Positions 16,648 through 63,615 of a stretch of DNA of 64,000 nt are shown piece after piece; position 1 is the first letter of the stretch; each line of letters begins with the position of its first letter. Position numbers and translations under genes: made by a program. The stretch covers positions 1,178,001 to 1,242,000 of the forward strand of contig NZ_FOIU01000001.1 in the NCBI RefSeq assembly GCF_900111495.1, read 5' to 3'. This DNA is from Chryseobacterium wanjuense. Lineage in GTDB: Bacteria > Bacteroidota > Bacteroidia > Flavobacteriales > Weeksellaceae. The notes beneath the pieces were generated by a model. The model was not told the origin of the DNA. It did no database searches and saw nothing but the letters and a program-made list of their open reading frames with translations.

Positions 16648-16676
16648 TTGTCAATGGTGACTTGTCAATGTGGTAA
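16648..16676. repeat. Heptamer-phased tract upstream of iaaA
   Basis: The octamer TTGTCAAT occurs at 16648 and again at 16662, exactly 14 bp (two heptads) apart, with GTGACTT between. Short member of the tract class described at 26001. Confidence 0.45.
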
Positions 16677-16759
16677 TTTTTAAAATTAATATAAAAATTA
16701 AGCTAGACAAAACTTAAGACTTAATTTTCGCTTTTTTTTCGTTCGTATAAGTTTATTCA

Positions 16760-16857
16760 CCACAAAGTTTGTCATCCTGCAAGGATTTAAGCACGAATCT
16801 TTACATACGACTCTCTAACACTATGCCTAGATCCTTGCAGGATGACAAACTTTGTGG
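16760..16857. repeat. 98-bp element with perfect 27-bp inverted arms
   Basis: 16760-16786 is the exact reverse complement of 16831-16857; each arm begins CCACAAAGTTTGTCATCC and ends GGAT. The 44-bp centre continues to pair partly (AGC/GCCT region). No coding capacity. It lies between iaaA (start 16637) and the cphB stop at 16909. The shape is that of a MITE-like or REP-like element; the inner GTCATCCTG string is shared with the repeats near 58658. It could also act as a strong hairpin in the cphB-iaaA transcript. Confidence 0.9.
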
Positions 16858-16876
16858 ATATTTATTCAATCGTTAA

Positions 16877-16908
16877 AACTGGAAATCCGAAACTCGTATC
16901 CACAACCC
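16877..16908. repeat. Heptamer-phased tract abutting the cphB stop codon
   Basis: Successive units AACTGGA, AATCCGA, AACTCGT, ATCCACA run in one 7-bp phase up to the cphB stop at 16909. See the entry at 26001 for the class. Confidence 0.45.
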
Positions 16909-17799
16909 CTATCTATCCTGCGGAATCGGATTAAATTGTGAATTTTCAATCGTTAATGTCTTGGTAATTAAATCATAATGATCATTCATCGACATTACAT
17001 GAACCGTTAAATTATCAATCGAAATCGGCTCGCCCAAATTGATATTGGTAAGATTGGTGTCTTTGATAAACCTTCCATCCACCAAAATAACAAGCCCGGA
17101 ACCGACAGCCGTCATCACATCATTGTGGATGAAAAGTCCGGTATCTTCTCCCAAACCGATTCCCAGCGTCCTCGGATTGTTGACAACGGCCTGAAAAAGC
17201 CTCCCGATTCTGCCTCTCTGAACGAAGTGAGTATCGATAATGACATTGTCGATTAATCCTAAACCTTGTGTGGTTTTTATTTCACCCTTCAGCAAGGCTT
17301 CAGAGCTGCTTCCCTGATAAATCATATTTTCAGAAGCGGCAGCGGCGCCCGCAGAAGTTCCGGAGTAGATAAAATCCTGCTCCTGATATTTTAATAAAAT
17401 GGTATCGTGAAATCTTGTTCCGCCAAGAATTGATGTTAATCTCAACTGATCACCACCTGTAAACATCACTACATCTGCGGCATTGGCTCTGGCAACCATA
17501 GCGTCAGAATTAGCTTCTTCACGGTTGTGAATATCCAAAATATTGACATTTTTGGCACCAAGAAATTCGAATGCTTTTTTGTATTCTGTACCTACAATTT
17601 GTGGGATTTGCGAGGCTGTTGTGATAATTTCGATCACAGAATCTTCTTTATTTTTGGATTCGTTGATGATCTTTCTTAAAATTCCTCTTTCAAAAAAGTT
17701 GAGATTTTTCTCTATATTCTGGTCAAAATCGGTTTCCGTAAAACTACCTTTGTTTACGGCTCCCCCGATTACAATTAATTTTCCAACGGGTTTCATCAT
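16909..17799 (-). CDS. cphB: Cyanophycinase (peptidase family S51)
   Basis: 296 aa serine exopeptidase that cuts cyanophycin into beta-Asp-Arg dipeptides. The nucleophile elbow is GTSAG (147-151, S149), preceded by FTGGDQLRL (113-121) and followed by GLGLIDNVIIDTHFVQRGRIGRL with the conserved His, all characteristic of S51. No signal peptide, so it is the intracellular type that mobilises stored polymer. Divergent from cphA and upstream of iaaA on the same strand: a complete make-store-degrade set. Start may be 17799 or 17796 (two ATGs). Confidence 0.95.
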   Translation of the reverse strand: MMKPVGKLIVIGGAVNKGSFTETDFDQNIEKNLNFFERGILRKIINESKNKEDSVIEIITTASQIPQIVGTEYKKAFEFLGAKNVNILDIHNREEANSDAMVARANAADVVMFTGGDQLRLTSILGGTRFHDTILLKYQEQDFIYSGTSAGAAAASENMIYQGSSSEALLKGEIKTTQGLGLIDNVIIDTHFVQRGRIGRLFQAVVNNPRTLGIGLGEDTGLFIHNDVMTAVGSGLVILVDGRFIKDTNLTNINLGEPISIDNLTVHVMSMNDHYDLITKTLTIENSQFNPIPQDR

Positions 17800-17804
17800 A
17801 TGTG

Positions 17805-17812
17805 CAAATTTA
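17805..17812 (-). promoter_or_regulatory. Possible -7 element for cphB
   Basis: Minus-strand TAAATTTG followed by CACAT lies only 5 bp before the first cphB ATG. If real, the transcript would be leaderless or nearly so. Chance match is possible. Confidence 0.3.
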
Positions 17813-17944
17813 AAAAATAATTAACATTTGGCGAAATTCATGCCACATTTTAATTGATTTTGAGCTTTTTAGATTTGTTAATTAATTTTATCTCTTTTTT
17901 GACAAATCTTTAAGTGTGGTATAGTATTGTTTAGGGTTTTACAT

Positions 17945-17952
17945 TATCTTTG
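17945..17952 (+). promoter_or_regulatory. -7 promoter element for cphA
   Basis: TATCTTTG fits TAnnTTTG, with a TTG at 17927-17929, 15 nt upstream. It leaves a leader of about 40 nt before the cphA start. Divergent arrangement with cphB across a 198-bp gap. Confidence 0.45.
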
Positions 17953-17997
17953 ATTTTAAATGGAGTTATTTTTGACTGTTAAAAATACAAATAGACT

Positions 17998-20625
17998 ATG
18001 AAAATTGAGAAGATACAGGCATTACGCGGCCCGAATATTTGGAGTATCAGACGAAAGAAGCTGATTCAGATGAGATTGGATCTTGAAGAGATGGAAAACT
18101 TTCCTACCAATAAAATTGAGGGGTTCCGGGAAAGAATAGAAAAACTCATTCCTTCCTTATATACTCACAGATGTTCAGAAGGCGTAGAAGGAGGATTTTT
18201 CCACCGTGTAGAAACAGGAACGTGGATGGGACATGTCATCGAGCATATTGCCTTGGAAATTCAGACTTTAGCAGGGATGGATGTAGGTTTTGGGAGAACA
18301 CGCGAAACAAAAACTCCGGGAATTTATAATGTAGTATTTAATTATATCGAAGAAAATGCAGGAATTTACGCCGCAGAACAAGCCGTAAAAATCGCAGAAG
18401 CACTTACGAATGGAGAAGAATATGACTTGAATGCCTGTATTCAGAAATTAAAAGAAATCAGAGAAAAGGTACGTTTAGGGCCTTCAACGGGAAGTATTGT
18501 TGAGGAAGCGGTTTCCAGAAAAATCCCATGGATAAGATTGGGAACGAACTCTTTGGTTCAGCTTGGTTATGGCGTGAATCAGCAGAGATTTCAGGCGACG
18601 ATTACAGGGAAAACGAGCTCAATTGCGGTAGATATTGCCTGTAATAAAGAATTAACCAAGAGAATGCTGCATGACGCCGCCATTCCTGTTCCGATCGGAG
18701 AATTAATTACTGAAGAAGAAGAGTTGGATAAAGTCATCAAAAAAATTGGTTACCCGATTGTTTTAAAGCCTTTGGACGGAAATCATGGGAAAGGTTCGTC
18801 AATTAATGTAAATGACTGGGAAGCAGCAAAAATAGGTTTCCATCATGCTCAGAAATATTCCAGAAAAGTTATCATTGAGAAATTTATTACGGGATATGAT
18901 TTCAGGGTTTTGGTGATTAATAATAAAATGGTGGCAGCAGCGAGAAGAGTTCCTGCCCATGTTGTCGGTGATGGCGAACTGAGCCTTCAGCAATTAATTG
19001 AAAAAGAAAATAAAGATCCGAGAAGAGGGTACGGACATGAAAATGTTTTAACTGAAATAGAAATCGATAAAGATACCACAGAACTTCTCGAAAAACTTCA
19101 CTATACTTTAGAAACGGTTCCTCAAAAAGGGGAAGTTGTTTATTTAAAATCAACGGCCAATCTTTCAACGGGAGGTACTTCCATCGACGTTACAGACATG
19201 GTTCACCCGGAAAATATCACGATGGCCGAAAGGATTTCGAAAATCATCGGTCTCGATGTTTGCGGAATTGATATCATGGCGGAAAATTTAACCCAGCCTT
19301 TAAAAGAAAGTGGAGGTGCCATCATTGAAGTGAATGCAGCTCCCGGTTTCAGAATGCACTTGGCTCCGAGTGAAGGATTGCCTAGAAACGTAGCCGCTCC
19401 GGTAGTAGATATGCTATATCCTCCAGGAAAACCTTTCACCATTCCGATCATCGCTGTTACAGGGACAAACGGAAAAACAACCACGACAAGATTAATTTCC
19501 CATATCGTTAAAAGCAACGGTTACCGAGTAGGTTTCACCACTTCAGACGGAATTTATATCCAGAATACGATGCTGACAAAAGGGGACACCACAGGACCGC
19601 TTTCTGCGGAGTTTATTCTTAAAGACCCAACGGTAGAGTTTGCCGTTCTGGAAACGGCAAGAGGTGGAATTCTTCGCTCTGGACTTGGTTTTTCACAATG
19701 TGATATCGGTGTTTTAACGAATATTGAAGAAGATCATCTGGGAATGAATGATATTCACAGTTTGAAAGATCTTACGCGCGTAAAAAGGGTAATTCTCGAC
19801 AGTGTAAAGAAAAACGGCTGGAGTGTCTTGAATGCTGACAATGAATATTCAATGAAAATTGTAAATGATCTTGACAGCAATGTTGCGATTTTCAGTATGA
19901 ATGAAAACAATCCTCACATGCTGAAGTTTGCGAAAGAGGGAAAAATTACCTGTGTATACGAAGAAGGTTTTGTCACGATTAAAAAAGGAGACTGGAAGAT
20001 AAGAATCGGGAAGGCAAAAGATTTTCCGATCACCATGGAAGGGAAGGCTAAGTTTATGATTGAAAATGTCTTAGCGGCGAGTTTGGCTTCTTATCTGTAT
20101 GGTTTTGGAATTGAAGATATTTCAAATTCTCTGCGAACATTCATTCCAAGTGCTCAGCTGACTCCGGGAAGGCTGAATGTTTTTAAGTTTAAAAATTTCA
20201 AGGTGTTAATTGATTTTGCACACAATCCATCGGGTTACGAAGCGATTGAAGATTATCTGAAAAACGTAGAAGCCAATAAGAAAATCGGGATTATTTCCGG
20301 CGTTGGTGACAGACGTGACAGCGATATCCGGGAATGCGGGAAAATTGCAGGAAGGATGTTCGATCACATCATCATCAGGAATGAGAAACATCTTCGTGGA
20401 AGAAAAGAAGAAGAAATTAACGGATTAATCATCGAAGGACTGCAATCTGCCGGAAAAGACGTAAGCTATGAGATTATTCCTAAAGAAATCGAAGCCCTGA
20501 AGCATGCGATGGGAATGGCGGAAGAAGGAACTTTCATCACGGCTTTAAGTGACGTAATTTCCAATGCTATTGATCTTGTTCAGGAATATCAGGCGAGGGA
20601 ATTGCTTGAGGATGATAAAGTGTAA
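17998..20625 (+). CDS. cphA: Cyanophycin synthetase
   Basis: 875 aa, the usual length. Three modules: an N-terminal domain (1-160) with the family's ALRGPNIWS opening; an ATP-grasp domain (about 215-470; IVLKPLDGNHGKGSSINV, IIEVNAAPGFRMHLAP); and a Mur-ligase-like domain with P-loop T488-G-T-N-G-K493-T-T-T, then EEDHLGM and the C-terminal VLIDFAHNPSGYEA. The ATP-grasp site adds Asp to the chain end and the Mur-like site adds Arg to its side chain, building multi-L-arginyl-poly-L-aspartate granules as a nitrogen store without a ribosome. Complete, with no missing motif. Confidence 0.97.
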   Translation: MKIEKIQALRGPNIWSIRRKKLIQMRLDLEEMENFPTNKIEGFRERIEKLIPSLYTHRCSEGVEGGFFHRVETGTWMGHVIEHIALEIQTLAGMDVGFGRTRETKTPGIYNVVFNYIEENAGIYAAEQAVKIAEALTNGEEYDLNACIQKLKEIREKVRLGPSTGSIVEEAVSRKIPWIRLGTNSLVQLGYGVNQQRFQATITGKTSSIAVDIACNKELTKRMLHDAAIPVPIGELITEEEELDKVIKKIGYPIVLKPLDGNHGKGSSINVNDWEAAKIGFHHAQKYSRKVIIEKFITGYDFRVLVINNKMVAAARRVPAHVVGDGELSLQQLIEKENKDPRRGYGHENVLTEIEIDKDTTELLEKLHYTLETVPQKGEVVYLKSTANLSTGGTSIDVTDMVHPENITMAERISKIIGLDVCGIDIMAENLTQPLKESGGAIIEVNAAPGFRMHLAPSEGLPRNVAAPVVDMLYPPGKPFTIPIIAVTGTNGKTTTTRLISHIVKSNGYRVGFTTSDGIYIQNTMLTKGDTTGPLSAEFILKDPTVEFAVLETARGGILRSGLGFSQCDIGVLTNIEEDHLGMNDIHSLKDLTRVKRVILDSVKKNGWSVLNADNEYSMKIVNDLDSNVAIFSMNENNPHMLKFAKEGKITCVYEEGFVTIKKGDWKIRIGKAKDFPITMEGKAKFMIENVLAASLASYLYGFGIEDISNSLRTFIPSAQLTPGRLNVFKFKNFKVLIDFAHNPSGYEAIEDYLKNVEANKKIGIISGVGDRRDSDIRECGKIAGRMFDHIIIRNEKHLRGRKEEEINGLIIEGLQSAGKDVSYEIIPKEIEALKHAMGMAEEGTFITALSDVISNAIDLVQEYQARELLEDDKV

Positions 20626-20640
20626 AGATATAATGTTTAA

Positions 20641-20675
20641 AGTTTTCGGCGGCATCGAAGATGCCGCCGAAAACT
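20641..20675. repeat. Perfect 16-bp hairpin after cphA
   Basis: 20641-20656 pairs perfectly with 20660-20675 around a 3-nt loop; the stem is GC-rich in its inner half. It is not directly followed by a T run, and the true terminator comes 12 bp later. Probably protects or closes the cphA mRNA 3' end. Confidence 0.8.
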
Positions 20676-20686
20676 CATTCAAAATA

Positions 20687-20714
20687 AAAACCTTCGGAAT
20701 TTTTCGAAGGTTTT
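20687..20714 (+). terminator. Terminator of cphA
   Basis: 10-bp stem (20687-20696 with 20705-20714), 8-nt loop, A run before and a T-rich stretch (GTTTTATAT) after. Works in tandem with the hairpin at 20641. Confidence 0.85.
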
Positions 20715-20738
20715 GTTTTATATTCCAATCCAGTTTGA

Positions 20739-20838
20739 GATGCTTCGACGGAGCTCAGCATGACAACGCTACAAATTAACCGCTAACTAATAAAACAGTT
20801 AGTATTAGAGATGTCATGCTGAGCGGAGTCGAAGCATC
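20739..20838. repeat. 100-bp inverted-repeat element, copy 1
   Basis: Arms 20739-20764 and 20813-20838 match at 22 of 26 positions (GATGCTTCGAC...CTCAGCATGAC). The inner segment from about 20780 to 20816 (AAACAGTTAGTATTAGAGATGTCAT core) recurs, in the opposite orientation, in the element at 22149, and in variant form near 58715 and 58851. Non-coding, lies between convergent cphA and the ATP-grasp gene. Confidence 0.85.
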
Positions 20839-20861
20839 CATTTATTATGTTTTTTTTAAAA

Positions 20862-22046
20862 TCACTCCTCCACAAAAAACGCATTAGAACTTCCAATCCA
20901 GATCGCATCTTTCTTGTTAAAATCTACATTTACCATTGCGGCTTTCGTCATTCTTCCAAGATTTTCGAGTAGGATAGGGCGTTCATCATTTTCGCGCCAA
21001 ATATATAACAAACGGATCTCTGCTTTTGAAAATTCTCCATTAATATCTTCAAAAATCGGTTCGTAATTGACTTTCCTTTGTAAAATATAATTTTCCTTGT
21101 CCTCAATTGCATCAGTAATTTCTTTGGTAGGATTTAGATTAACTCCGCTTCCTGCAAAAGAAAACAAAGGTTTCAAAACAAAATTTTCGAGGTTTTCACT
21201 GTCCGGAAATTCGTGTAGAAAATAGCTTTTCGGAACAAACTGATGTTGCAAAAGAGGCAATAAAAATTTAGAAATTTTAAAAAACCAATTCGGATGCGTA
21301 ATCCATTTTACGTCAATATCTTCACGGAAATCGAGCTCAGTTTTAAGATCCGGAATCCGGTCGAGCTCATCGAAAATGACACGGTTATAAATCCTTTTAA
21401 TCTCCGTTAATTTTCCATTATTTTCATAGAACAATTTTTTGCCTTCTTTTTTAATTTTTGTCAGACAAACCGTTTTTATACCCAATAACTTTTCAGTTAG
21501 AATAAAATCAATGACTGTTTTTTGTTTTTCGGGATAAATTTCCAACAAAATAACGTTTTCGAGATTTTCATTACCGATAATCAGTTCTTTCATGTAATTT
21601 TTAAACTCTTCATGAGGCATTTTATTCTTAATCTCCGTTAAGAAAGGGTAGATTTCACAGAATGTATCTTCAAAAACCTTTTGAAAAGCATACAGCGAGG
21701 GAAAGGCCTGCAATTCGATAAGTTGAGGTTCTATTTCGCCGTTTTCATTTTTACATACTCCGAAATCTATCGTGAAAAAATGAGGTTTGCCGGTATCATT
21801 CGGAACCCGGCAATTGTCCGGGATGGCTTTTTGTAAGGTTTCTGCAGGCAAAGCTTTGATCTGATCGATAATACTTTCGCTTGCATCAAGCAGTTTATGT
21901 TCGAATTCTTTGGATAAAAAAAGAGGACTTTCAGAAATTCTGAATGCTGGTTCAAGACCGCTTTTTTCTTTTAAAATTTCTTTGAAACGTTCATATTTTT
22001 CCTGTGAAAATTCCTGATTAAACTGCTTTCTGTATTTTGAAATCAT
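20862..22046 (-). CDS. ATP-grasp-like protein of the amidoligase cluster
   Basis: 394 aa from the ATG at 22046 (MISKYRKQFNQEF). The frame is open a further 45 codons upstream to 22181, but that part is repeat-element sequence read by chance, so I reject it. The C-terminal 110 residues look like an ATP-grasp catalytic half: FVLKPLFSFAGSGVNL (289-304, the nucleotide-binding loop), YILQRKVNYEP, then KAEIRLLYIW and LLENLGRMTKAAMVNVDF with acidic and Asn residues suited to metal binding. The N-terminal 200 residues are unrecognised. Probably ligates a carboxylate to an amine using ATP. It is separated from the rest of the cluster by the repeat at 22149. Confidence 0.75.
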   Translation of the reverse strand: MISKYRKQFNQEFSQEKYERFKEILKEKSGLEPAFRISESPLFLSKEFEHKLLDASESIIDQIKALPAETLQKAIPDNCRVPNDTGKPHFFTIDFGVCKNENGEIEPQLIELQAFPSLYAFQKVFEDTFCEIYPFLTEIKNKMPHEEFKNYMKELIIGNENLENVILLEIYPEKQKTVIDFILTEKLLGIKTVCLTKIKKEGKKLFYENNGKLTEIKRIYNRVIFDELDRIPDLKTELDFREDIDVKWITHPNWFFKISKFLLPLLQHQFVPKSYFLHEFPDSENLENFVLKPLFSFAGSGVNLNPTKEITDAIEDKENYILQRKVNYEPIFEDINGEFSKAEIRLLYIWRENDERPILLENLGRMTKAAMVNVDFNKKDAIWIGSSNAFFVEE

Positions 22047-22148
22047 ATTCTTTTTCTTTTTTGTGATTTTAAAAAATCGGACAATTGTTGCCCGATTTTC
22101 TGTATTACTATTTTTCTTTTTAAATATTTTGAGATGGTTTCTGGTCAA

Positions 22149-22256: not shown

Positions 22257-22265
22257 TATGTTATT

Positions 22266-23099: not shown

Positions 23100-23117
23100 A
23101 CTACATTATATTTTTTG

Positions 23118-23125: not shown

Positions 23126-23133
23126 CCAAAATA

Positions 23134-25995: not shown

Positions 25996-26000
25996 TTTTT

Positions 26001-26090
26001 AATTATAATTGATGAATAATAAATAATAATCGATTTAGATTATAAGTTATTTCGCTAACTTCTAACTTCTAACTTCTAACTTCTAACTTT
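26001..26090. repeat. Heptamer-phased tract filling an intergenic gap
   Basis: Thirteen units of 7 bp in one unbroken phase fill almost the whole 95-bp gap. The last five are TAACTTC repeats (26056-26083, last copy TAACTTT), the earlier ones are related but degenerate (AATAATA twice at 26015 and 26022, ATTGATG, TAAGTTA). The tract ends exactly at the stop codon (26091). It is the clearest of about ten tracts in this window. Confidence 0.85.
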
Positions 26091-27302
26091 TCAGCTTGTC
26101 GGTTTACTTTTTGGAGGAAGAATATTCAGCATATCCGAATGTATTTTTGCTGCAGCATAATCCAGCCGATCCTGCACAACCGAAGAGTCATTCGATTTGT
26201 AAACAATACCAACGTGGTAATCGATCGGAAGGAATTTCACGACTTCTTCACATTCAAATTGATTATAATCCGGTTCTTTATCTTTAATTAAAGCGACAAT
26301 CAGTCCCGAATAATATCCGGTAGGTTTGGCAACTTCATATTTCTTCTGTTTAAGTAGGGCATCTTCAATCTTTGCCCATTCTCTCCAGATGTTGATATTG
26401 CTGGAAGCTTCCACCAGATCAGGAATGTGCGCACCGCCCACCCGGGAAGAGGTTTCCAGGAAATACCATTTTCCGTCTTCTTTTCCGCGTATGAATTCTG
26501 TATGGGTCGCTCCGTTGATTAAGCCAAAACTTGACAACACTTTAGCATTCGCCTCTTCAAGCGCTTTGAATTCATCGGAATATCGCCCCAGTGTTTTAGA
26601 TCTGAAAACACCTCCCTCATGCGAAACCTGCATCGGAGGAGCAAGATATTTTGAAGCGGATGTGAAAACTATTTCTTTGTTAAATGTCAAGCTGTCAACG
26701 TGATACACATCTCCCGGCTTGAAGCTTTCCAGTAAAAACAAATGTCGTTCTTCTCCCAGAGCGTTCAAAGCGTCCCAAAGTTCATCTTTAGACTTCAGTT
26801 TTTTAATTCCCGAAGCCGAAGCTTCCGAACGCGGTTTTAAAACCCATGGAGCGGGAATGTGCTCAACGAAACGATTAACCTCATCATTATTAAAAACAGC
26901 GGTAAACTCAGGAACGCTAATTCCAGAATCTTTTGCTTTTTGCCGCATAGCCAACTTATCCCTGAAATATCTGTGCGTCGTTTGTCCCATTCCCGGAATA
27001 CGGAATGTTTCCCGGATAAGAGCTGCTTTTTCCACATCATAATCGTCCAGAGCTACGACTGCGTCTACTTTTCTGGTTTGCATTAGATGAGAAAATCCCT
27101 GGATAAGATGTTCCAGATTCCAGACAGACGGCTGTAATTCGGGCATATAAAATACCTCGTCGATGGCGTGCCAAGGCCAGTTTTTTTCTTTAAGATTTTC
27201 GGATGTGACTAAGATTATTTTATTACCGAGCTTCTTCATTTCGTCCATGAAATCATAGCCCTTGTAATAGCACGAAATACATACTATAATTTTCTCCTCC
27301 AT
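26091..27302 (-). CDS. ATP-grasp ligase, carbamoyl-phosphate synthase/biotin carboxylase type
   Basis: 403 aa. N-terminal pre-ATP-grasp Rossmann part (EKIIVCISCYYKGYDFMDEM, VDAVVALDDYDVEKAALIRE), then ATP-grasp: PWVLKPRSEASASGIKKL (Lys and Gly/Ser loop), FLLESFKPGDVYHVDSL and the metal-binding strand WYFLETSSRVGGAHIPDLVEA, where the usual E-x-N reads E-x-S. Fold relatives include PurK/PurT, BtrJ and L-amino acid ligases. As first gene of the compact part of the cluster it may perform the committing ligation. No signal peptide. Confidence 0.87.
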   Translation of the reverse strand: MEEKIIVCISCYYKGYDFMDEMKKLGNKIILVTSENLKEKNWPWHAIDEVFYMPELQPSVWNLEHLIQGFSHLMQTRKVDAVVALDDYDVEKAALIRETFRIPGMGQTTHRYFRDKLAMRQKAKDSGISVPEFTAVFNNDEVNRFVEHIPAPWVLKPRSEASASGIKKLKSKDELWDALNALGEERHLFLLESFKPGDVYHVDSLTFNKEIVFTSASKYLAPPMQVSHEGGVFRSKTLGRYSDEFKALEEANAKVLSSFGLINGATHTEFIRGKEDGKWYFLETSSRVGGAHIPDLVEASSNINIWREWAKIEDALLKQKKYEVAKPTGYYSGLIVALIKDKEPDYNQFECEEVVKFLPIDYHVGIVYKSNDSSVVQDRLDYAAAKIHSDMLNILPPKSKPTS

Positions 27303-28860: not shown

Positions 28861-28864
28861 AAGT

Positions 28865-40493: not shown

Positions 40494-40570
40494 AAAATAG
40501 AAGTTAGAAATTAGAGATTAGAAGTTAGAATTTTAAAAGTCTTTTTGTCTTTTATCTATTTTCTTAAAAT
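40494..40570. repeat. Heptamer-phased tract between sucA and sucB
   Basis: From just after the sucA stop, units AAAATAG, AAGTTAG, AAATTAG, AGATTAG, AAGTTAG, AATTTTA follow in one 7-bp phase (40494-40535). The next 35 bp are pyrimidine-rich with a weaker 7-bp rhythm that reads similarly on the other strand (CTTTTAT, CTATTTT), as if a palindrome of two opposed tracts. Confidence 0.7.
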
Positions 40571-40613
40571 CTAAAAAAGAAATAATAATCAATAAAAAAA
40601 TAAAAAATACGAT

Positions 40614-42360: not shown

Positions 42361-42402
42361 TGTATGACCAAAAAGCTCGAATCTCGCAGCTCGTATCATA
42401 AA
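42361..42402. repeat. Six-heptamer tract exactly filling the gap between two convergent stop codons
   Basis: The 42 bp between the apaG stop and the exonuclease stop divide into six heptamers with a shared pattern, for instance GCTCGAA, TCTCGCA, GCTCGTA. The first 17 bases are identical to 3965-3981 in the metE leader. Confidence 0.75.
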
Positions 42403-42957: not shown

Positions 42958-43074
42958 TTAAAATTGTTTAAATTATTGTTCAATGTTTAAAGTTTTGGGT
43001 TCAATGCTTTGAGTTTAATGTTCTTTACTCACCATTCCGATCTCAACACGGAACTCAAAACCCGAAACTCGGAT
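42958..43074. repeat. Long heptamer-phased tract between the exonuclease and GT2 genes
   Basis: About 16 units in one phase fill the 117-bp gap. TTCAATG occurs at 42979 and 43000, 21 bp (three units) apart, with related units TTTAATG, CTTTGAG. The second half switches to C/A-rich units (CAAAACC, CGAAACT, CTCAACA), the reverse-complement style of the first half, so the tract is a degenerate palindrome. It ends at the GT2 stop codon (43075). Confidence 0.75.
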
Positions 43075-46173: not shown

Positions 46174-46192
46174 TGTTGTTGTCCGTTTTAGA

Positions 46193-46227
46193 GATCCGAG
46201 TTCCTGGATTTGAGTTCCGGGCTTCTC
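46193..46227. repeat. Heptamer-phased tract between rpsR and rplI
   Basis: Units GATCCGA, GTTCCTG, GATTTGA, GTTCCGG, GCTTCTC in one 7-bp phase inside the 129-bp gap of a ribosomal protein operon. Confidence 0.6.
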
Positions 46228-46302
46228 TTCACTTCGTTAGAATTTATTAATTAATTCAGCAACAAAAGAAGAGATTGCTCTCTTCCTTTATTTATTTTTG
46301 TC

Positions 46303-47143: not shown

Positions 47144-47187
47144 ACTCAAAAACCCGCAACCCGAATCCCGCAACTCAAAACTCGCAA
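47144..47187. repeat. Heptamer-phased tract abutting the ClC gene stop
   Basis: Six units of one phase, ACTCAAA, AACCCGC, AACCCGA, ATCCCGC, AACTCAA, AACTCGC, then the stop codon at 47188. Confidence 0.8.
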
Positions 47188-48540
47188 TTACTTCTCCGAC
47201 CGTATTTCCTCCAGCAGATTCACCTTTATCACATCATATAAAGAATGTCTGCTCACCAAAATAGAAGCGATGGAAGAAACCATTCCGGCTAACATCAGGT
47301 GGAAGATCAATGAATGTCTGTCCGTCATTTCAAGGACGACAATGGCTGATGTAAAGGGCGCTCTGGTGATTCCTGTAAGAAAAGCCACCATCCCGGCAAG
47401 AACCACAACGTTGGTCTCATTGGGACTTAAATGAATTGCTCCTGAAATTACAGAACCAATGCTGGCTCCGGCTGTGAGGGCAGGGGCAAAAATTCCTCCG
47501 GCGCCACCGGAAGTAAATGAAAGGGCAGGCCCCAACATTCTTAAGATCGGAACATACCAGTCTTCATGTTTATCGTTTGTAAAAAGAATACGCTCCATGA
47601 TTTCCTTTCCTGAACCTAAAATTTCCCGGTTGATAAAGAATGCAATGGAAGCTATAATTAAAGCGGAAATAACCAAAAAAAGGACGTTGGCTTTATCTGT
47701 TTTTAATTTTCTTTTTTTCCAGTCGGTGATTTTAAGCATGGTTACAGAAAGCTGACTAGCCAGAATTCCTGCGGTACCTGCGACTAAAATAATCGGAAAC
47801 ATTACCATTAATGAAACATCATTGGTTTTGGGATATCCCAGATATAAATAAGAACCCGCCAACGTCTGAGCCGTTAAACCGGCAATAATAACCGCGGTGA
47901 ATAAAGCTGTTTTAAAGTAATTAATATGCGTTTTTGAAAGCTCTTCAACAGCAAATACAATTCCGCCGAGAGGAGTGTTGAAAGCGGCTGCAAGTCCGGC
48001 CGCAGCTCCTGTCATGATCATATTTTTCTTGGAAATTTTTGGCCACCATTCGGGAAGATATTCATTTACCTTCCTGAAAACCGAGCCCGCAATCTGAATA
48101 GTAGGTCCTTCACGACCAATAGCGCCACCTCCGATTACCAAAACGACTGAGGAAATGATTTTAAAAACAATAATTTTTAAACTTAATAAACTCCTGATTT
48201 TCCTGTGTTCTTTAGGGTTGGCAAGCTCTACAGCTGCCATTACCTGCGGGATTCCGCTTCCTTTTGCATTGGGTGCAAATTCTTTCACGAGCCACCATGA
48301 AACAACAAAACCAATCGGTGCGATAATGAAAATCATCCATGCATGCCAGTTGATGATGAAGTGCAAAAGGTTTTCACCCCAGGCGAAAAGTTTGGCATAC
48401 ATTACCGCAAAGAAGCCTGTAATCACCGAACCTATCCAAAAGGGGATGGCCTGAAGCAGATTGTACTTCAATTGTTCGTTTCGGATGTTGTCAAAGGATT
48501 TTTTTAGAGATCGTCGAATGAGATTGAAAAATTTCAGCAT
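47188..48540 (-). CDS. ClC-family chloride channel or Cl-/H+ antiporter
   Basis: 450 aa, about 11 membrane segments. Selectivity-filter motifs are intact: G94-SGIP-Q (first), GREGPT with the gating glutamate E144 (second) and GGAGGIFAPAL (third), plus the later ITRAPFTSAIVVLEMT. Intact gating Glu fits both channels and antiporters. No C-terminal CBS domains. Likely aids acid tolerance or anion balance in the inner membrane. Confidence 0.93.
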   Translation of the reverse strand: MLKFFNLIRRSLKKSFDNIRNEQLKYNLLQAIPFWIGSVITGFFAVMYAKLFAWGENLLHFIINWHAWMIFIIAPIGFVVSWWLVKEFAPNAKGSGIPQVMAAVELANPKEHRKIRSLLSLKIIVFKIISSVVLVIGGGAIGREGPTIQIAGSVFRKVNEYLPEWWPKISKKNMIMTGAAAGLAAAFNTPLGGIVFAVEELSKTHINYFKTALFTAVIIAGLTAQTLAGSYLYLGYPKTNDVSLMVMFPIILVAGTAGILASQLSVTMLKITDWKKRKLKTDKANVLFLVISALIIASIAFFINREILGSGKEIMERILFTNDKHEDWYVPILRMLGPALSFTSGGAGGIFAPALTAGASIGSVISGAIHLSPNETNVVVLAGMVAFLTGITRAPFTSAIVVLEMTDRHSLIFHLMLAGMVSSIASILVSRHSLYDVIKVNLLEEIRSEK

Positions 48541-49361: not shown

Positions 49362-49382
49362 TTATATTTTAAACCGGTAAAA

Positions 49383-49409
49383 AATTACTCATTACCAATT
49401 ATTCATTAT
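49383..49409. repeat. Short heptamer-phased tract abutting the E2 stop
   Basis: AATTACT, CATTACC, AATTATT, CATTATT in one phase, ending on the stop codon at 49410. Confidence 0.55.
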
Positions 49410-57132: not shown

Positions 57133-57135
57133 TAA

Positions 57136-57163: not shown

Positions 57164-57178
57164 ATTTTTTATCTGTTT

Positions 57179-58540: not shown

Positions 58541-58563
58541 ATGTATTCTAAATTATAGGTCTG

Positions 58564-58571
58564 CAAAAATA
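58564..58571 (-). promoter_or_regulatory. -7 promoter element for ffh
   Basis: Minus-strand TATTTTTG followed by C, 23 bp before the ffh start. Confidence 0.5.
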
Positions 58572-58657
58572 AGGAATTTTTAGCATATCTAAAGACTTCG
58601 ACACGTAATATTATATATACAATATTTTCAAACACAAAGTTTAAGGTTAAATATAAA

Positions 58658-58764
58658 TCCTTCGACTGTTTTGCGCTCGGAATGACATCATAAAAATTTA
58701 CATATATAATAATAAACAATTAGTATTAGCAACCTGTCATCCTGAGCGCGAAGCAGTCGAAGGA
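58658..58764. repeat. 107-bp inverted-repeat element, copy 3
   Basis: Arms 58658-58686 and 58736-58764 match at 25 of 29 positions; three of the four differences would be G-U pairs in RNA. Contains TTAGTATTAGC before the right arm, shared with the other copies. It occupies part of the 472-bp gap between ffh and the AtpI-like gene. Confidence 0.85.
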
Positions 58765-58802
58765 CTCTTCACTCCATATAAAAAATAGTTTATCTTAAAA
58801 AA

Positions 58803-58898
58803 TCCTTCAACTTCGTTCAGGAAGACACTGGCAAATTATTGTGTATAAGTAAACTGTTAATATTAGCAACCTGTCATCCTCAGCGGAGTCGAAGAATC
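58803..58898. repeat. Inverted-repeat element, copy 4 (degraded left arm)
   Basis: Right side GTCATCCTCAGCGGAGTCG (from 58873) and the inner AAACTGTTAATATTAGC (58851-58867) match copies 1 and 3; the left arm TCCTTCAACTTCGTTC is only partly complementary. Directly follows copy 3. The remaining bases of the gap (58541-58657, 58899-58979) hold promoters and nothing else I can name. Confidence 0.75.
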
Positions 58899-58979
58899 TA
58901 CAGAATATTTCATGGTATTAAAATATAAACAGGTTGTATGATAAAAATCAAATCATACCATAATCCGATAGAAAAAGTC

Positions 58980-58987
58980 TATTTTTG
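58980..58987 (+). promoter_or_regulatory. -7 promoter element for the AtpI-like gene
   Basis: TATTTTTG followed by C, 25 bp before the start at 59013. Confidence 0.45.
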
Positions 58988-59012
58988 CGATAAATTAAAA
59001 CTGACCTAATAA

Positions 59013-59408
59013 ATGTTAGGTAAAAACAAATTTGAAATGAAAGCTAATCCCAATATTCTGGTAACGGTATTATTCTTTTTGACTTTCCTGATTCATTTCT
59101 CTTTGTGGAAATTTGTTTTTCATCTGGATGAGATTGTAATCGTGAAATTTTATTTATTCCTGAGTGTGATGTTTATGCTGATGATTACCCTGATTGTTTT
59201 AATCAACAAAGTGGTACCGGAATTTTTAGGACTGTCTGTGATCGGGTTGATCTTATTAAAATTCGCTTTAATGTATCTGATTCGGAAAAAATTAAACTTT
59301 GAAGTGATTCCGGGGTATAAATTTCATTTTATCATACCCTATTTTGTCCTGACGACGCTCCTTACGTACTATGCGATTAAGCTAATTAATCATGACAAAA
59401 AACAGTAA
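59013..59408 (+). CDS. AtpI-like membrane protein upstream of the ATP synthase genes
   Basis: 131 aa with four membrane segments (about 13-30, 36-60, 68-88, 104-122). The position directly before atpB and the size are those of AtpI/AtpZ-type proteins that assist c-ring assembly or Mg2+ supply, though the sequence is only loosely similar. An internal ATG at 59037 (MKANPNIL) could be the start. Separated from atpB by a promoter, so it may be expressed separately. Confidence 0.75.
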   Translation: MLGKNKFEMKANPNILVTVLFFLTFLIHFSLWKFVFHLDEIVIVKFYLFLSVMFMLMITLIVLINKVVPEFLGLSVIGLILLKFALMYLIRKKLNFEVIPGYKFHFIIPYFVLTTLLTYYAIKLINHDKKQ

Positions 59409-59417
59409 AATTATTTA

Positions 59418-59446
59418 TTGAAACTAGAAAAATTATTATATTTTTG
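59418..59446 (+). promoter_or_regulatory. Promoter of the ATP synthase operon
   Basis: TTG at 59418-59420, 18-nt spacer, TATTTTTG at 59439-59446 followed by C. A TTG codon at 59444 that would lengthen atpB lies within it, so translation must start later, at 59468. Confidence 0.65.
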
Positions 59447-59467
59447 CACAACGAAAAAAACCTATCA

Positions 59468-60565
59468 ATGTTTAAGAAATTCGCAGTTTTATTCTACAGT
59501 ATTTTTGTATTAAACTTAGTGTCTGCACAGCACGGTGAGGCTACTGCTGAGGCGGCTCCAGCTACAGAGCTTTCGGAAAAAGACAAAGTAAGTAAAGAAA
59601 ACAAAGAGTTCATCGCCCATCACTTGTTGGACGCTCACGACTTTACATTGATGGTAGACAAAGAAGGTCACCATATCGGTTTTCCTCTTCCTGTTATTTT
59701 TTATGACAATGGGATCCACGCTTTCATGAGCAACAAAGAAGGATTCATGCACGGAGAGCCAACTGAGGTAGACGGAAATTTCTACAAACTACACCACGAA
59801 AAAATTTATAAAACAGACGCAAACGGGACTCTGGAAATTGATGAAGAAGGTCACCCGAAAGCTGAAAAAGTTTTAGACTTATCCATTACGAAGAGTGTAC
59901 TTATCATTATCATGGTTTCGATCTTCATGTTGGTATTGTTCACAGGAATGGCAAGATCTTACAAAAAGTCTCAGGTTCCTACAGGAGCAGCAAGATTTTT
60001 AGAACCATTGGTAATTTTCGTAAGAGACGAAATTGCTATCCCGAATATCGGACATAAATATAAGAGATTCATCGGATATTTACTGACTGTATTTTTCTTC
60101 ATCTTATTTTTGAACGTATTAGGATTAATGCCTTTCGGAATCAATGTTACCGGTAATATTACCATGACATTCTTATTGGCGATCCTTACTTATTTAATTA
60201 CTACATTTTCTGCAAATAAAGATTATTGGAAACACATCTTCTGGATGCCGGGAGTACCTGTACCCATGAAAATCATCATGTTGCCAATCGAATTGTTAGG
60301 AACAATCACAAAGCCTTTCGCATTGATGATCCGACTTTTTGCAAACATGACTGCAGGACACATCGTGGTAATGAGTTTGATCGGATTGATCTATGTATTC
60401 AAGAACTTTGTAGCAGGTGTTGCATTCCCGTTCCTTACATTGGTAATCTATCTTTTGGAAGTATTGGTAGCATTCTTACAGGCTTATATCTTTACGATGT
60501 TATCAGCTTTGTTCATCGGAATGGCGGTGCAGGAGCACGAGCACGAACACCACGCTGCTCACTAA
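59468..60565 (+). CDS. atpB: ATP synthase F0 subunit a
   Basis: 365 aa from the ATG at 59468, much longer than the 270 aa of E. coli. The extra N terminus starts with a signal-like MFKKFAVLFYSIFVLNLVSAQ and a charged region to about 130, as is usual in Bacteroidota. The proton-channel half has the essential Arg in FALMIRLFANMTAGH and the C-terminal LEVLVAFLQAYIFTMLSALFIG. The very end is histidine-rich (QEHEHEHHAAH). Inner membrane, forms the half-channels next to the c-ring. Confidence 0.95.
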   Translation: MFKKFAVLFYSIFVLNLVSAQHGEATAEAAPATELSEKDKVSKENKEFIAHHLLDAHDFTLMVDKEGHHIGFPLPVIFYDNGIHAFMSNKEGFMHGEPTEVDGNFYKLHHEKIYKTDANGTLEIDEEGHPKAEKVLDLSITKSVLIIIMVSIFMLVLFTGMARSYKKSQVPTGAARFLEPLVIFVRDEIAIPNIGHKYKRFIGYLLTVFFFILFLNVLGLMPFGINVTGNITMTFLLAILTYLITTFSANKDYWKHIFWMPGVPVPMKIIMLPIELLGTITKPFALMIRLFANMTAGHIVVMSLIGLIYVFKNFVAGVAFPFLTLVIYLLEVLVAFLQAYIFTMLSALFIGMAVQEHEHEHHAAH

Positions 60566-60614
60566 TTGAAAATTAAAATAATAAAAAGAAACAAATTTTT
60601 TAAAATTATATATT

Positions 60615-60809
60615 ATGGAAATCCCTAAAATTGTAGGTGCTGGTATCGTAGTACTAGGTGTAGGTATCGGTCTTGGTAAAATCGGAGCTGCTGCTCTTGA
60701 AGCTATCGCTAGACAACCTGAACAATCTGGAAAAATCCAAACAGCTATGCTTATCGCAGCTGCACTTGTAGAAGGTGTTGCGTTTGCTGCTCTATTCGCA
60801 GTAAACTAA
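60615..60809 (+). CDS. atpE: ATP synthase F0 subunit c
   Basis: 64 aa, short for the family (70-80). Two helices: MEIPKIVGAGIVVLGVGIG then ARQPEQ loop (32-37) and TAMLIAAALVEGVAFAALF with the ion-carrying E53. The glycine-rich first helix packs the ring. E53 is followed by Gly, not Ser/Thr, which argues for protons rather than Na+, though I would not press this. Followed by a strong hairpin before atpF. Confidence 0.96.
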   Translation: MEIPKIVGAGIVVLGVGIGLGKIGAAALEAIARQPEQSGKIQTAMLIAAALVEGVAFAALFAVN

Positions 60810-60819
60810 TTAAAACTAA

Positions 60820-60856
60820 AGCCACTATCCGTAACGGTTGGTTACAGATAGTGGTT
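60820..60856 (+). promoter_or_regulatory. Hairpin between atpE and atpF (attenuator or mRNA-stability element)
   Basis: 8-bp outer stem (60822-60829 with 60847-60854) extended by flanking pairs, one mismatch, then a 5-bp inner stem GTAAC/GTTAC (60831-60835 with 60841-60845) around GGTTG. It is followed by TTATTT, a weak termination signal. Subunit c is needed in about tenfold excess, so partial termination or 3'-end protection of atpB-atpE mRNA makes sense. Confidence 0.7.
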
Positions 60857-60896
60857 ATTTAAGAAAAAAAGTAATAATTATTTATACATTAATATA

Positions 60897-61394
60897 ATGG
60901 AATTAATTCATCAGTTTTCATCAGGATTATTTATTATCCAATCTGTTATTTTTCTAGCATTGTTATTTTTGTTAGGTAAATTCGCTTGGAAACCTATTTT
61001 AAAGTCTATCAATGACAGAGAAACTTCTATCGTTGATGCTCTTAATCAAGCTACACTAGCAAGAAAAGAAATGGAAACTTTAAAAGAGGATAACGAAAGA
61101 ATCATTCGTGAAGCTAAAATCGAAAGAGATGCTATCCTTAAAGAAGCCAGAGAGATTAAAGATAGAATCGTAGGTGAGGCTAAAGATGCTGCTAAAGCTG
61201 AAGGAGACAAATTGATCGAAGCTGCTAAACAAACTATCAACGCTGAGAAAAACGCTGCAATGGCAGATATCAAAACTCAGATCGGTACTTTATCAGTGAA
61301 CATCGCAGAGTCTATCTTGAAACAAAAATTAGACAACAGCGAAGCTCAAAACGAATTAGTTCAAAATTATTTAAACAAATCTAACCTTAACTAA
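60897..61394 (+). CDS. atpF: ATP synthase F0 subunit b
   Basis: 165 aa. One N-terminal membrane helix (FSSGLFIIQSVIFLALLFLLGKF) then WKPILKSINDRE and a long charged helix (about 45-140) that dimerises as the peripheral stalk. Ends 2 bp before atpH. Confidence 0.96.
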   Translation: MELIHQFSSGLFIIQSVIFLALLFLLGKFAWKPILKSINDRETSIVDALNQATLARKEMETLKEDNERIIREAKIERDAILKEAREIKDRIVGEAKDAAKAEGDKLIEAAKQTINAEKNAAMADIKTQIGTLSVNIAESILKQKLDNSEAQNELVQNYLNKSNLN

Positions 61395-61396
61395 TA

Positions 61397-61936
61397 ATGC
61401 TTACATCTAAAGTAGCTAAAAGATACGCACAAGGTTTACTTGATTTTACAAACGAATCAGGGCAAACGGCTACTGTATTTTCAGAAATGAAAGATGTAGT
61501 GAAGATTATGAATGAATCTCAGGATTTAAACAAATTCTTCCACACACCATACATCGATTCTAAAAAGAAAATAGAAGTAGCAAAGGAGATTTTCAAAAGT
61601 TTATCGGTTTCTTCTCAAAATATGATCACTTTGGTAATCAGACAGGGAAGAGAAAATCAACTGAAAAATATCGCTCAGGAATTCATCAATAAAGTTGAGG
61701 ATATCAATGGCGTACAGAGAATTACTCTTACGACAGCGACTGAGATTTCAAAAGAGAATATCAATCAGATCTTAAGATCTACCAACTTGGTAAAAGCTGA
61801 TTCGAATTTTGATTTGAAACTAAATGTAAACCCGAAAATCCTTGGAGGTTATATATTAAGAGTAGGAGACCAGTTAGTAGATGCTTCTGTGAAGTCTAAG
61901 CTTAATCAAATTAAAAAAGATTTTCAATTAAATTAA
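61397..61936 (+). CDS. atpH: ATP synthase F1 subunit delta
   Basis: 179 aa. N-terminal helical bundle (SKVAKRYAQGLLDFTNESGQ; FFHTPYIDSKKKIEVAKEIF) and the C-terminal LNVNPKILGGYILRVGDQLVDASVKSKL that binds the b stalk. Joins F1 to the peripheral stalk. Two bases from atpF, 18 from atpA. Confidence 0.96.
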   Translation: MLTSKVAKRYAQGLLDFTNESGQTATVFSEMKDVVKIMNESQDLNKFFHTPYIDSKKKIEVAKEIFKSLSVSSQNMITLVIRQGRENQLKNIAQEFINKVEDINGVQRITLTTATEISKENINQILRSTNLVKADSNFDLKLNVNPKILGGYILRVGDQLVDASVKSKLNQIKKDFQLN

Positions 61937-61954
61937 GAAAAAAACAACCATACA

Positions 61955-63532
61955 ATGGCAGAAATAAATCCGGCAGAAGTATCTGCGATCTTAAAACAGC
62001 AATTGGCCAACTTCGATACTCAATCAAACGTTGAGGAAGTAGGTACAGTTTTAACCATCGGTGATGGTATTGCTCGTGTATACGGGTTAGAAAACGTACA
62101 ATACGGAGAGTTGGTGAAATTTTCTAGTGATGTAGAAGGTATTGTACTAAACCTTGAAGAAGACAACGTAGGTGTTGCTCTACTTGGTGAAAGTAAATTA
62201 GTAAAAGAAGGTGATACAGTAAGAAGAACAAACAGAATCTCTTCTATCAAAGTAGGAGAAGGCATGTTGGGAAGAGTAGTAGATACTCTTGGTAACCCTA
62301 TCGATGGTAAAGGTCCTATTACTGGGGATTTATACGAAATGCCATTGGAAAGAAAGGCTCCTGGAGTTATCTTCAGACAGCCGGTAACTGAGCCTTTACA
62401 GACAGGTATCGTTGCAATCGACTCTATGATCCCTGTAGGAAGAGGGCAGAGAGAGCTTATCATCGGTGACAGACAGACAGGTAAAACTACTGTTGCGATC
62501 GATACGATCATCAACCAAAAAGAATTCTATGATGCAGGGAAGCCTGTATATTGTATATATGTTGCTATCGGACAAAAAGCGTCTACTGTAGCACAAATCG
62601 TGAAAACGCTTTCTGATAAAGGAGCTTTAGCTTATACGGTAATCGTTGCGGCTAACGCATCAGATCCGGTTCCAATGCAGGTATATTCTGCAATGGCAGG
62701 TGCTTCTATCGGTGAGTTCTTCAGAGACACTGGTAGACCAGCTTTGATCGTTTATGATGATTTATCAAAACAAGCGGTAGCTTACCGTGAGCTTTCTCTA
62801 CTATTGAGAAGACCACCGGGACGTGAGGCTTATCCTGGAGACGTTTTCTATCTTCACTCAAGATTGTTGGAAAGAGCAGCAAAAGTAATCGCTGATGACA
62901 AAATTGCAAGCCAAATGAATGATTTACCTGAGTCTTTAAGACCAATCGTGAAAGGTGGTGGTTCATTAACGGCACTTCCAATCATCGAAACTCAGGCGGG
63001 TGACGTTTCTGCGTATATCCCAACGAACGTAATCTCTATTACAGACGGACAGATCTTCTTGGAGTCTGATCTATTCAACTCAGGGGTACGTCCTGCGATC
63101 AACGTGGGTATCTCTGTATCGAGAGTAGGAGGTAACGCTCAGATCAAATCAATGAAAAAAGTTTCTGGTACGCTTAAATTAGACCAGGCTCAATATAAAG
63201 AATTAGAAGCGTTTGCTAAATTCGGTTCAGACCTTGATGCTTCTACTTTAGCAGTTATCTCTAAAGGGGAAAGAAACGTTGAGATCCTTAAGCAGCCGGT
63301 AAACTCTCCACTTCCTGTAGATAGCCAAGTTGCTATGATCTACGCTGGAACTGAGAACTTACTAAGAAACGTTCCTATCAGAAAAGTAAAAGAATTCCAA
63401 ATCGAATATATCGAGTTCCTAAGATCTAAGCATCCTGATACAATGGCTGCTATCAAAGCTGGGAAAATCGATGATTCAATCACAGGTGTTCTTAAGCAGG
63501 CTGCTAATGATTTAGCTTCTAAATATAACTAA
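61955..63532 (+). CDS. atpA: ATP synthase F1 subunit alpha
   Basis: 525 aa. Walker A G171-DRQTGKT-178, nucleotide-binding and interface blocks (SREAYPGD-like [52 protein letters not shown]), the conserved arginine in GIS-V-SRVGG. Non-catalytic nucleotide subunit alternating with beta. The beta and epsilon genes (atpD, atpC) are not downstream here; in Bacteroidota they commonly form a separate unit. Confidence 0.97.
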
Positions 63533-63538
63533 AAATTA

Positions 63539-63615
63539 GTTGATGGTTTTTGGTTGATAGTTGACAGAATTTTCTAAAACTAGCAACCAACAACCGACAA
63601 CCAACAACTAACCAA
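63539..63615. repeat. Palindromic heptamer-phased tract between atpA and atpG
   Basis: Eleven units in one phase. The first four are GTTGATG, GTTTTTG, GTTGATA, GTTGACA; the last five centre on CAACAAC, CGACAAC, CAACAAC. Left arm 63539-63563 and right arm 63584-63608 are reverse complements at 20 of 25 positions. The tract fills the gap from 6 bp after the atpA stop to 2 bp before the atpG ATG, so it could form a hairpin in the atp mRNA that overlaps the atpG initiation region. Confidence 0.85.

Follow-up and report, generated by a model that had tools for sequence, protein, structure and literature searches.

Intergenic tandem arrays with a 7-bp step in Chryseobacterium wanjuense and its relatives

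Heptamer repeats similar in kind to those described here are known from cyanobacteria as STRR. Our subject is a class of tandem arrays built of 7-bp units in the intergenic gaps of Chryseobacterium wanjuense, studied from a stretch of 64,000 nucleotides, the window (positions 1,178,001 to 1,242,000 of contig NZ_FOIU01000001.1, assembly GCF_900111495.1), outward into the surrounding genome and into relatives. Several published systems resemble these arrays. In a survey of long simple sequence repeats (LSSRs), heptanucleotides outnumbered every other class in most of the genomes covered, and their origin was ascribed to slippage linked to the stretch of approximately 7 nt that the polymerase holds (Mrazek 2007, cited in PMC4679880 and PMC4692102). 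The Chryseobacterium arrays share with LSSRs the intergenic 7-bp tandem units and the whole-unit changes in copy number, but the LSSR descriptions, as cited, are without the polarity, pairing and motif grammar of our arrays. GGGNATC arrays of Xanthomonas and GGGGA(C/T)T arrays of Nostoc are intergenic and G-rich and have been studied as G-quadruplex formers (Rehm et al. 2015, PMC4692102). They almost always lie nearer to the open reading frame (ORF) on their own 5' side, whatever the orientation of that ORF, and are found on the coding strand after stops and on the non-coding strand before starts. In two Xanthomonas 70 and 75 convergent pairs form inverted repeats, with few in Nostoc, and the length and sequence of the arrays vary between related genomes (PMC4692102).

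Direct repeats of TAACTGA have been reported from Beggiatoaceae, Cyanobacteria and five Bacteroidetes, including Gramella forsetii and A. sublithincola (MacGregor 2015, PMC4679880). In BOGUAY, 147 of 170 sets lie toward start codons, 15 of these having a ribosome-binding site and 132 lacking one, and 12 sets lie toward stops; in the available text related heptamers are rare as repeats, one inverted repeat is noted and a translational role is proposed (PMC4679880). TAACTGA fits the pattern AACYNNN, is intergenic and lies toward starts like one orientation of the Chryseobacterium arrays, but it is one fixed heptamer, unlike the varied heptamers seen here, and tandem TAACTGA was not found among the arrays listed for 1.26 Mb of the 4.67 Mb C. 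wanjuense genome. An initial annotation of the window knew of no description of such repeats in Flavobacteriia; the TAACTGA arrays known from five Bacteroidetes tell against a lack of precedent. The P6b stem of the trnL intron of Nostoc and Calothrix is likewise built of 7-nt repeats of two classes, TDNGATT or NNTGAGT, which were swapped repeatedly across the phylogeny, with whole 7-nt gains and losses (Kaasalainen et al. 2015, PMC4476775). The Chryseobacterium hairpins resemble it in their 7-nt units, type replacement and whole-unit steps; P6b, as described there, is one intron stem, unlike the Chryseobacterium arrays neither intergenic nor genome-wide. No published account of such arrays in Chryseobacterium was found in a literature search that lacked most subscription papers; one Chryseobacterium paper, in the part available, merely counts tandem repeats (PMC13063519).

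The 7-bp arrays are a real, genome-wide class of intergenic repeats, with head-to-tail units beyond chance. Genes were called by a greedy longest-ORF method, which makes start positions approximate, and the main scan covered 905 gaps (176 kb) in 1.26 Mb of contig 1. In these gaps we counted 35, 25, 19 and 10 lag-7 segments with scores of at least 12, 14, 16 and 20, compared to 4, 1, 0 and 0 in one dinucleotide shuffle, and 9, 5, 3 and 2 in coding sequence (CDS) of the 1.26 Mb. The excess in gaps over shuffled and coding sequence, which the initial annotation had proposed as a test, was thus found. A second class with an 8-bp step appeared at lag 8 (15, 10, 6 and 2 segments, compared to 4, 0, 0 and 0 in one shuffle). 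Lags 14 and 21 tracked lag 7, and lags 5, 6, 9 and 10 showed no excess over the shuffle. Longer lags (11, 13, 16, 18 and 22) mildly exceeded it, with 7 vs 1 segments scoring at least 12 at lag 11, 12 vs 1 at lag 18 and 10 vs 2 at lag 22. Only a small share of gaps carry arrays (38 of the 732 that are 30–400 nt long, at a score of at least 13), TRF recovered part of the arrays, and unit uniformity varies, some arrays being perfect (CTAACTT x5) and many strongly drifted.

When gap self-match was averaged over 464 kb, lag 7 gave 0.3264 vs 0.3234 and 0.3189 at the neighbouring lags (s.e. 0.002), and the profile rose locally again at 14, 21 and 28. The window alone showed 0.329 at lag 7, 0.319 at lag 6 and 0.310 at lag 8, and 0.264 in CDS. 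Its excess was modest, with 5, 4 and 3 gaps at lag-7 scores of at least 10, 12 and 14; 60 shuffles of the window gave means of 1.15, 0.43 and 0.12 and maxima of 5, 4 and 1. Across eight Chryseobacterium sources (1408 gaps, score at least 14), lag 7 was the best lag of 61 gaps and lag 8 of 18, followed by lag 21 (10) and lag 11 (9). Mean autocorrelation showed a clear lag-7 excess in five relatives (0.0114, s.e. 0.0020), a weak one in 18 named Chryseobacterium loci (0.0034, s.e. 0.0019) and none in Flavobacteriaceae loci (0.0015, s.e. 0.0014).

The arrays change by whole units between near-identical genomes. In the genomes G117 and G118, whose mean flank identity is 99.1%, 134 gaps were compared, 8 of them with lag-7 arrays. 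The indels in these 8 gaps were of 2, 7, 7, 7, 8 and 28 nt, and the one of 8 nt lies in an octamer array (lag-8 score 149) neighbouring a heptamer array; heptamer and octamer arrays thus coexist in one gap, each altered by whole units. The other gaps of this pair held 9 indels of at least 5 nt, one of them of 7. In a second pair, G106 and G107 (27 gaps, 80 kb), the lone array gap has an indel of 7 and one other gap an indel of 6; we left out one further gap (indels of 44 and 7), where one of the two assemblies has a run of N and the lag scores stem from these letters. When the two approximately 99% identical pairs were pooled, indels of at least 5 nt were multiples of 7 in 5 of 6 cases in array gaps and in 1 of 10 in other gaps, the sixth being the octamer step of 8. 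Strain indels in multiples of 7 were the other test that the initial annotation had set, and slippage, one of the origins it had listed, is supported by these whole-unit steps. Substitutions between G117 and G118 were 8/318 inside arrays and 199/16572 outside.

Between species, orthologous gaps keep their flanks and differ in the type of filler. One gap carries CTAACTT x5 in the window and CTAATTC x5 at the same place in G040, which is a concerted change. Two further differences were seen in the near-identical pairs. An 18-nt segment appears inverted, with extra sequence, between G117 and G118 in the gap 167452-167562 (L227-L236 joined; flanks 99.1%). The N-run of G106/G107, 44 nt long, falls precisely where a terminator-like hairpin (GCATCG...CGATGC) has its loop, in the gap 3071-3167 (L269-L270 in G106, L267-L268 in G107), and it mimics a lag-7 array in automatic scans.

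The varied heptamers share a motif. An expectation-maximization (EM) alignment of 52 arrays, with phase and strand left free, gave the A+T-rich consensus NNNRGTT (reverse AACYNNN), which is without a G-tract of the GGGNATC kind. Its log-likelihood was 102.5. In 23 control sets, with columns permuted within arrays and restarts equal to those of the real set, the log-likelihood averaged 85.4 (sd 2.2) and reached 90.1 at most. The AAY or GTT that the initial annotation had placed at a fixed position in the units was borne out by this alignment.

The motif is also oriented, and one rule covers arrays on the stop and the start side: units read RGTTNNN inward from either gene edge. The sense strand reads GTT beside stop codons (22:4) and AAC beside starts (31:5; C. 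wanjuense and G117, Fisher 2e-8), a count restricted, for C. wanjuense, to arrays within 60 nt of an edge, which omits 15 at threshold 11. In co-directional gaps from three sources, the median distance to the upstream stop was 6 nt for 31 GTT arrays and 66.5 nt for 38 AAC arrays, and the median distance to the following start was 71 and 10 nt, respectively. Across the eight Chryseobacterium sources, RGTT pointed inward in 80 of 92 near-edge arrays, a set that includes some orthologous loci. These 80 comprise 40 of the 43 arrays that had an opposite partner no more than 150 bp away and 40 of the 49 for which none was detected. Local sequence gives a baseline polarity of 55–59%, and random 7-mers from array-free edges made tandem reached 55%, which the arrays exceed (Fisher 2e-10); local composition was rejected as the source of the polarity on this ground. 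Stop codons within the arrays were also rejected, as all three frames are closed about as often in the GTT reading (35 of 88) as in the AAC reading (29 of 88). Selection for A-rich leaders was set aside because four palindromic octamer gaps carry GTTANATT before starts instead of AAC. In these four gaps the octamer class has the form AATNTAAC...GTTANATT and its base polarity is opposite; octamer edge counts overall were mixed (12/10/8/5).

Neighbouring arrays (within 80 bp) face each other. With '>' denoting an array with RGTT on the plus strand, 29 pairs comprised 24 '><', 2 '>>', 2 '<<' and 1 '<>'; the 24 of 29 are inflated by orthologues, representing about 15 distinct loci by our own count, and were obtained after removal of low-complexity segments and of the 36 arrays, out of 256, whose orientation was unclear. 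Arrays at both edges make a gap a quasi-palindrome. Facing neighbours, the one-polarity position at gene edges and the 8-bp class are features absent from the initial annotation. In following the edge rule and in facing each other, the Chryseobacterium arrays are like the G-rich heptamers of Xanthomonas and Nostoc, for which an intergenic position, the edge rule and convergent pairing have all been published before (PMC4692102). Unlike that single G-rich type, Chryseobacterium has many A+T-rich heptamers that share only NNNRGTT. What is new in Chryseobacterium is this motif, the 8-bp class, the switching of filler type at individual loci and the unit-step change between approximately 99% identical genomes, features that go beyond the G-rich arrays as described in PMC4692102.

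To place the hairpins at the DNA or RNA level, we used the ratio of G.U to A.C arm mismatches on the sense strand, in which G.U would be expected to prevail under selection as RNA. With symmetric scoring it was 53:57 in 58 hairpins with both arms inside 7-phased tracts, and 54:55 for the best inverted repeat in each of 44 array gaps, a test that took one repeat per gap and not always the array arms. A positive control of 94 terminator-like hairpins gave 63:36 (p=0.009). Selection on the RNA strand was rejected as the general cause on the basis of this flat ratio, which also disfavours the general mRNA role considered in the initial annotation. The arms showed no unit-by-unit match beyond their shared vocabulary (15 arm pairs, combined z -0.13), and this unmatched unit order rules them out as positional copies of each other. 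Based on the flat ratio and the unmatched arms, the general class looks like DNA-level structure, and arms that share vocabulary but not unit order are the outcome expected of independent slippage in each arm.

The tracts occur within core operons, whose gene names (sucA, sucB, rpsF, rpsR, rplI and atpA) were confirmed, and three of these slots were compared among relatives. At sucA-sucB a tract is present in 4 of 30 Chryseobacterium loci (gap 101–122 nt) and absent from 26 (35–49 nt), with conserved flanks. At rpsR-rplI and atpA-atpG the filler classes were assigned by eye. Among 30 rpsR-rplI loci, an approximately 20-bp hairpin stands alone in 12, longer hairpin fillers, most of them visibly 7-phased, occupy 12, and the remaining 6, the window included, have a type-C tract without a visible partner. 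The 27 atpA-atpG loci comprise 15 of type B, 6 of type A, to which the window belongs, and 6 others, with a hairpin in most. The window AtpA is 99% identical to those of C. soldanellicola, C. elymi and C. angstadtii. On the atpA tree, labels A and B need 5 changes each, a number as low in 97 of 500 shuffled labels for A. Folding with DNA energies gave z -6.0 for the atpA-atpG hairpin and did not go below z -2.4 in any of seven further gaps, and from its sequence conservation this hairpin may be a constrained exception to the DNA-level class. The type A hairpin (window 63533-63617; L088:11579-11663) is conserved across genera, yet close relatives have an unrelated type.

On balance, we consider it likely that the arrays are tandem repeats at the level of DNA, that replication slippage makes them turn over in steps of 7 bp or, less often, 8 bp, and that they have perhaps grown on small inverted repeats. 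A small pre-existing inverted repeat in a gap would stall the polymerase, the stalled strand would re-anneal about 7–8 nt out of register, and each arm would lengthen and be homogenised unit by unit, so that some gaps would end up as extended hairpins with imperfect pairing. For the most part the arrays would be filler that the cell tolerates rather than RNA elements. The range at rpsR-rplI from a hairpin of approximately 20 bp to longer, mostly 7-phased hairpins between conserved flanks counts in favour of this account.

A number of results weigh against this account. When inverted repeats were scored without gaps, the top one surpassed each of 10 shuffles in 12 of 38 array gaps and in 183 of 634 array-free gaps, though strong ones (score at least 16) were found in 9 of 38 and 62 of 634. 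Since palindromes are by the first measure not commoner in array gaps, the data argue only weakly for the hairpin-seed step. In C. wanjuense, an opposite partner was detected within 150 bp for only 22 of the 55 near-edge arrays. The divergent pair G058/G095 gave no clean excess of indels in multiples of 7, being too divergent to show such steps. Slippage alone leaves the shared NNNRGTT motif and its RGTT core underived, and accounts neither for the inward polarity of unpartnered arrays nor for the words shared by distant lineages. The presence and absence of the sucA-sucB tract would also suit insertion or deletion of a whole element. At atpA-atpG, the type A hairpin is identical at 78 of 84 positions between the window and Cloacibacterium, with third codon positions of atpA at 60%, and the one-sided changes in the consensus folds are mostly G.U (6 and 15 sequences, which are non-independent).

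The last two points bear on two rival explanations. If each heptamer type were a non-autonomous family of mobile palindromic elements (MITE- or REP-like) with inverted ends made of 7-bp sub-repeats, inserted and lost as a whole, then the 4 filled and 26 empty sucA-sucB sites would follow directly, as would large arms around unique cores (for example, the G022 insert with GGAAG-type arms), the recurrence of heptamer types at many loci and the number of label changes on the atpA tree, which is not clearly below that of shuffled labels. We regard this as unlikely. When nine window stretches were compared with the gaps of the 1.26 Mb, eight arrays matched elsewhere only at approximately 65–90% over short stretches, and a single dispersed repeat family was rejected for want of near-identical copies. 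The initial annotation had denied such a family and treated each gap as having expanded from its own seed: the class is indeed united by phase and not by one sequence, but the heptamers are not independent, as a limited vocabulary recurs at many loci with roughly 70–90% identity over short stretches. No target duplication was seen by eye between filled and empty sucA-sucB sites, although one could be missed at approximately 85% identity. A Y1 transposase, with three matches in the C. wanjuense genome, was not found in G117, G118 or G107 (other transposases were not searched for), so that only a need for a Y1/RAYT transposase is refuted. The change of both heptamer and octamer arrays by whole units within one gap also speaks against mobile elements.

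That the arrays are selected RNA hairpins or spacers tuning translation coupling or mRNA stability, with slippage as the source of raw material, seems to us quite unlikely as a general explanation. It draws on the atpA-atpG slot, where a hairpin of two main types occurs in most loci, type A is strongly conserved and the changes lean to G.U, and on the bias of array gaps toward co-directional gene pairs (32 of 38 vs 493 of 732 overall). The flat wobble ratios compared to those of the terminator-like controls, the lack of unit-order matching between arms and the 6 of 38 array gaps that are divergent or convergent all point away from it. Chance phasing or local composition in AT-rich gaps, over-read by eye, could be suspected from the window by itself, where the signal is modest and four of the 11 listed sites fail to reach significance individually, and from the baseline polarity of local sequence. 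As shuffles and neighbouring lags give almost nothing, and the polarity, in a count that includes some orthologous loci, is far above that of random tandem 7-mers, we consider this explanation extremely improbable. DNA-level slippage remains the account that we prefer, though mobile palindromes or selected RNA hairpins may apply at single loci.

The features of the window are collected in Table 1. For the 11 sites listed in the initial annotation, up to 170 nt around each was compared to 1000 shuffles, and the p values are uncorrected. Seven sites were significant individually: 26001, 40494 and 63539 (p 0.001 each), 42361 (0.003), 47144 (0.007), 49383 (0.011) and 42958 (0.015). The other four were not, namely 16648 (0.10), 16877 (0.24), which shares a gap with 16648, 46193 (0.36), which does fall in a slot occupied by 7-phased fillers in relatives, and 3965, which is without signal (0.955).

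Table 1. Tracts, arms and drifted candidates in the window, in order of position.
Position	Feature	Support
16645..16671	Doubtful drifted tract (TTGTCAATGGTGACTTGTCAATG); different fillers in relatives' gap	p=0.10
25996..26029	Weak 7-phased tract at the gap's other edge, orientation opposite to 26055-26089	lag-7 score 11
26055..26089	(CTAACTT)x5, one base from stop codon of gene 26091-27302 (-)	p=0.001
40498..40533	Left arm of sucA-sucB gap (TAGAAGT TAGAAAT ...), RGTT inward	orientation analysis
40565..40609	A-rich 7-phased tract, sucB side of sucA-sucB gap, orientation opposite to left arm	
42372..42397	Short drifted tract AAGCTCG AATCTCG CAGCTCG TATC, convergent gap	p=0.003
42973..43023	GTT-type arm (TTCAATG/TTTAAAG type)	p=0.015 for gap
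43046..43074	AAC-type arm (GGAACTCAAAACCCGAAACTCGGAT), gap shared with 42973..43023	resembles other C-type gaps
46189..46230	rpsR-rplI slot, drifted type C (GAGTTCC ...)	p=0.36 alone; 30 loci compared
47151..47183	Tract AACCCGC AACCCGA ATCCCGC AACTCAA, 4 nt from stop of gene 47188-48540 (-)	p=0.007
49381..49409	Tract ATTACTC ATTACCA ATTATTC	p=0.011
63539..63567	atpA-atpG hairpin 5' arm GTTGATG GTTTTTG GTTGATA GTTGACA (type A)	fold z -6.0
63578..63612	atpA-atpG hairpin 3' arm AACTAGC AACCAAC AACCGAC AACCAAC AACTAAC	

The doubtful site 3965 adjoins a cobalamin riboswitch (RF00174, 94.3 bits) at window 3997-4181 (-), and no other Rfam family reached its gathering score in the window. Other palindromes were also observed. 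A REP-like palindrome, TTGTCATCCTGCAAGGATC..., lies at window 16769-16860, with copies of approximately 75–82% in several other gaps among the matches listed for the 1.26 Mb, and a different palindrome, GATGCTTCGACGGAGCTCAGCATGACA, lies in the window gap 20626-20861 and near 1155860 of contig 1. In one convergent gap of contig 1 (6642-6732; L007:6642-6732), (CCCTAAA)5 directly adjoins the 8-bp array GTAACAAT; CCCTAAA is also the unit of plant telomere repeats.

Inward polarity beyond Chryseobacterium is only partly supported. In 148 Bacteroidota genomes, exact AACTTCT x3 was found in 5 and the backward pattern in 0; AACCAAC x3 was found in 1, its backward control being uninformative as the same word. 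A fresh 400 kb of a Kovacikia (Cyanobacteriota) plasmid had lag-7 scores of at least 13 in 29 of 259 gaps and lag-8 scores in 6, with 0 for both in one shuffle. Neighbouring arrays there comprised 12 '><', 7 '>>', 2 '<<' and 0 '<>', and the polarity was inward in 23 of 31 arrays near edges (16 of 20 with a partner, 7 of 11 without) and in 28 of 48 when every array was counted. Near-edge polarity was 11/11 in the plasmid's initial 90 kb, which preceded this fresh sequence and of which 40 kb were picked by a BLAST hit. When the best lag per gap was counted in a cyanobacterial plasmid, lag 7 led (20 of 238 gaps) and lag 8 had 2. A Trichormus plasmid (350 kb) had lag 7 in 7 gaps and mixed polarity, 3 for and 3 against.

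We tentatively suggest, as a possibility short of a probable conclusion, that Bacteroidota, Cyanobacteriota and Xanthomonas (PMC4692102) share one unrecognised process that produces 7-bp, sometimes 8-bp, units with an RGTT-like reading inward from gene edges and makes quasi-palindromes of some gaps. If this is true, the separately named heptamer repeats would be products of that one process, and the step of 7 or 8 bp would reflect a molecular ruler that belongs either to the polymerase or to some enzyme that works on hairpins. The findings bring STRR, the TAACTGA arrays, the G-rich Xanthomonas heptamers and the trnL intron stem together under one testable grammar, consisting of the 7/8-bp step, the RGTT core, inward edge polarity and convergent pairs. 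For Chryseobacterium itself, the arrays represent a fast-changing, unit-stepped marker inside the core operons of a common genus.

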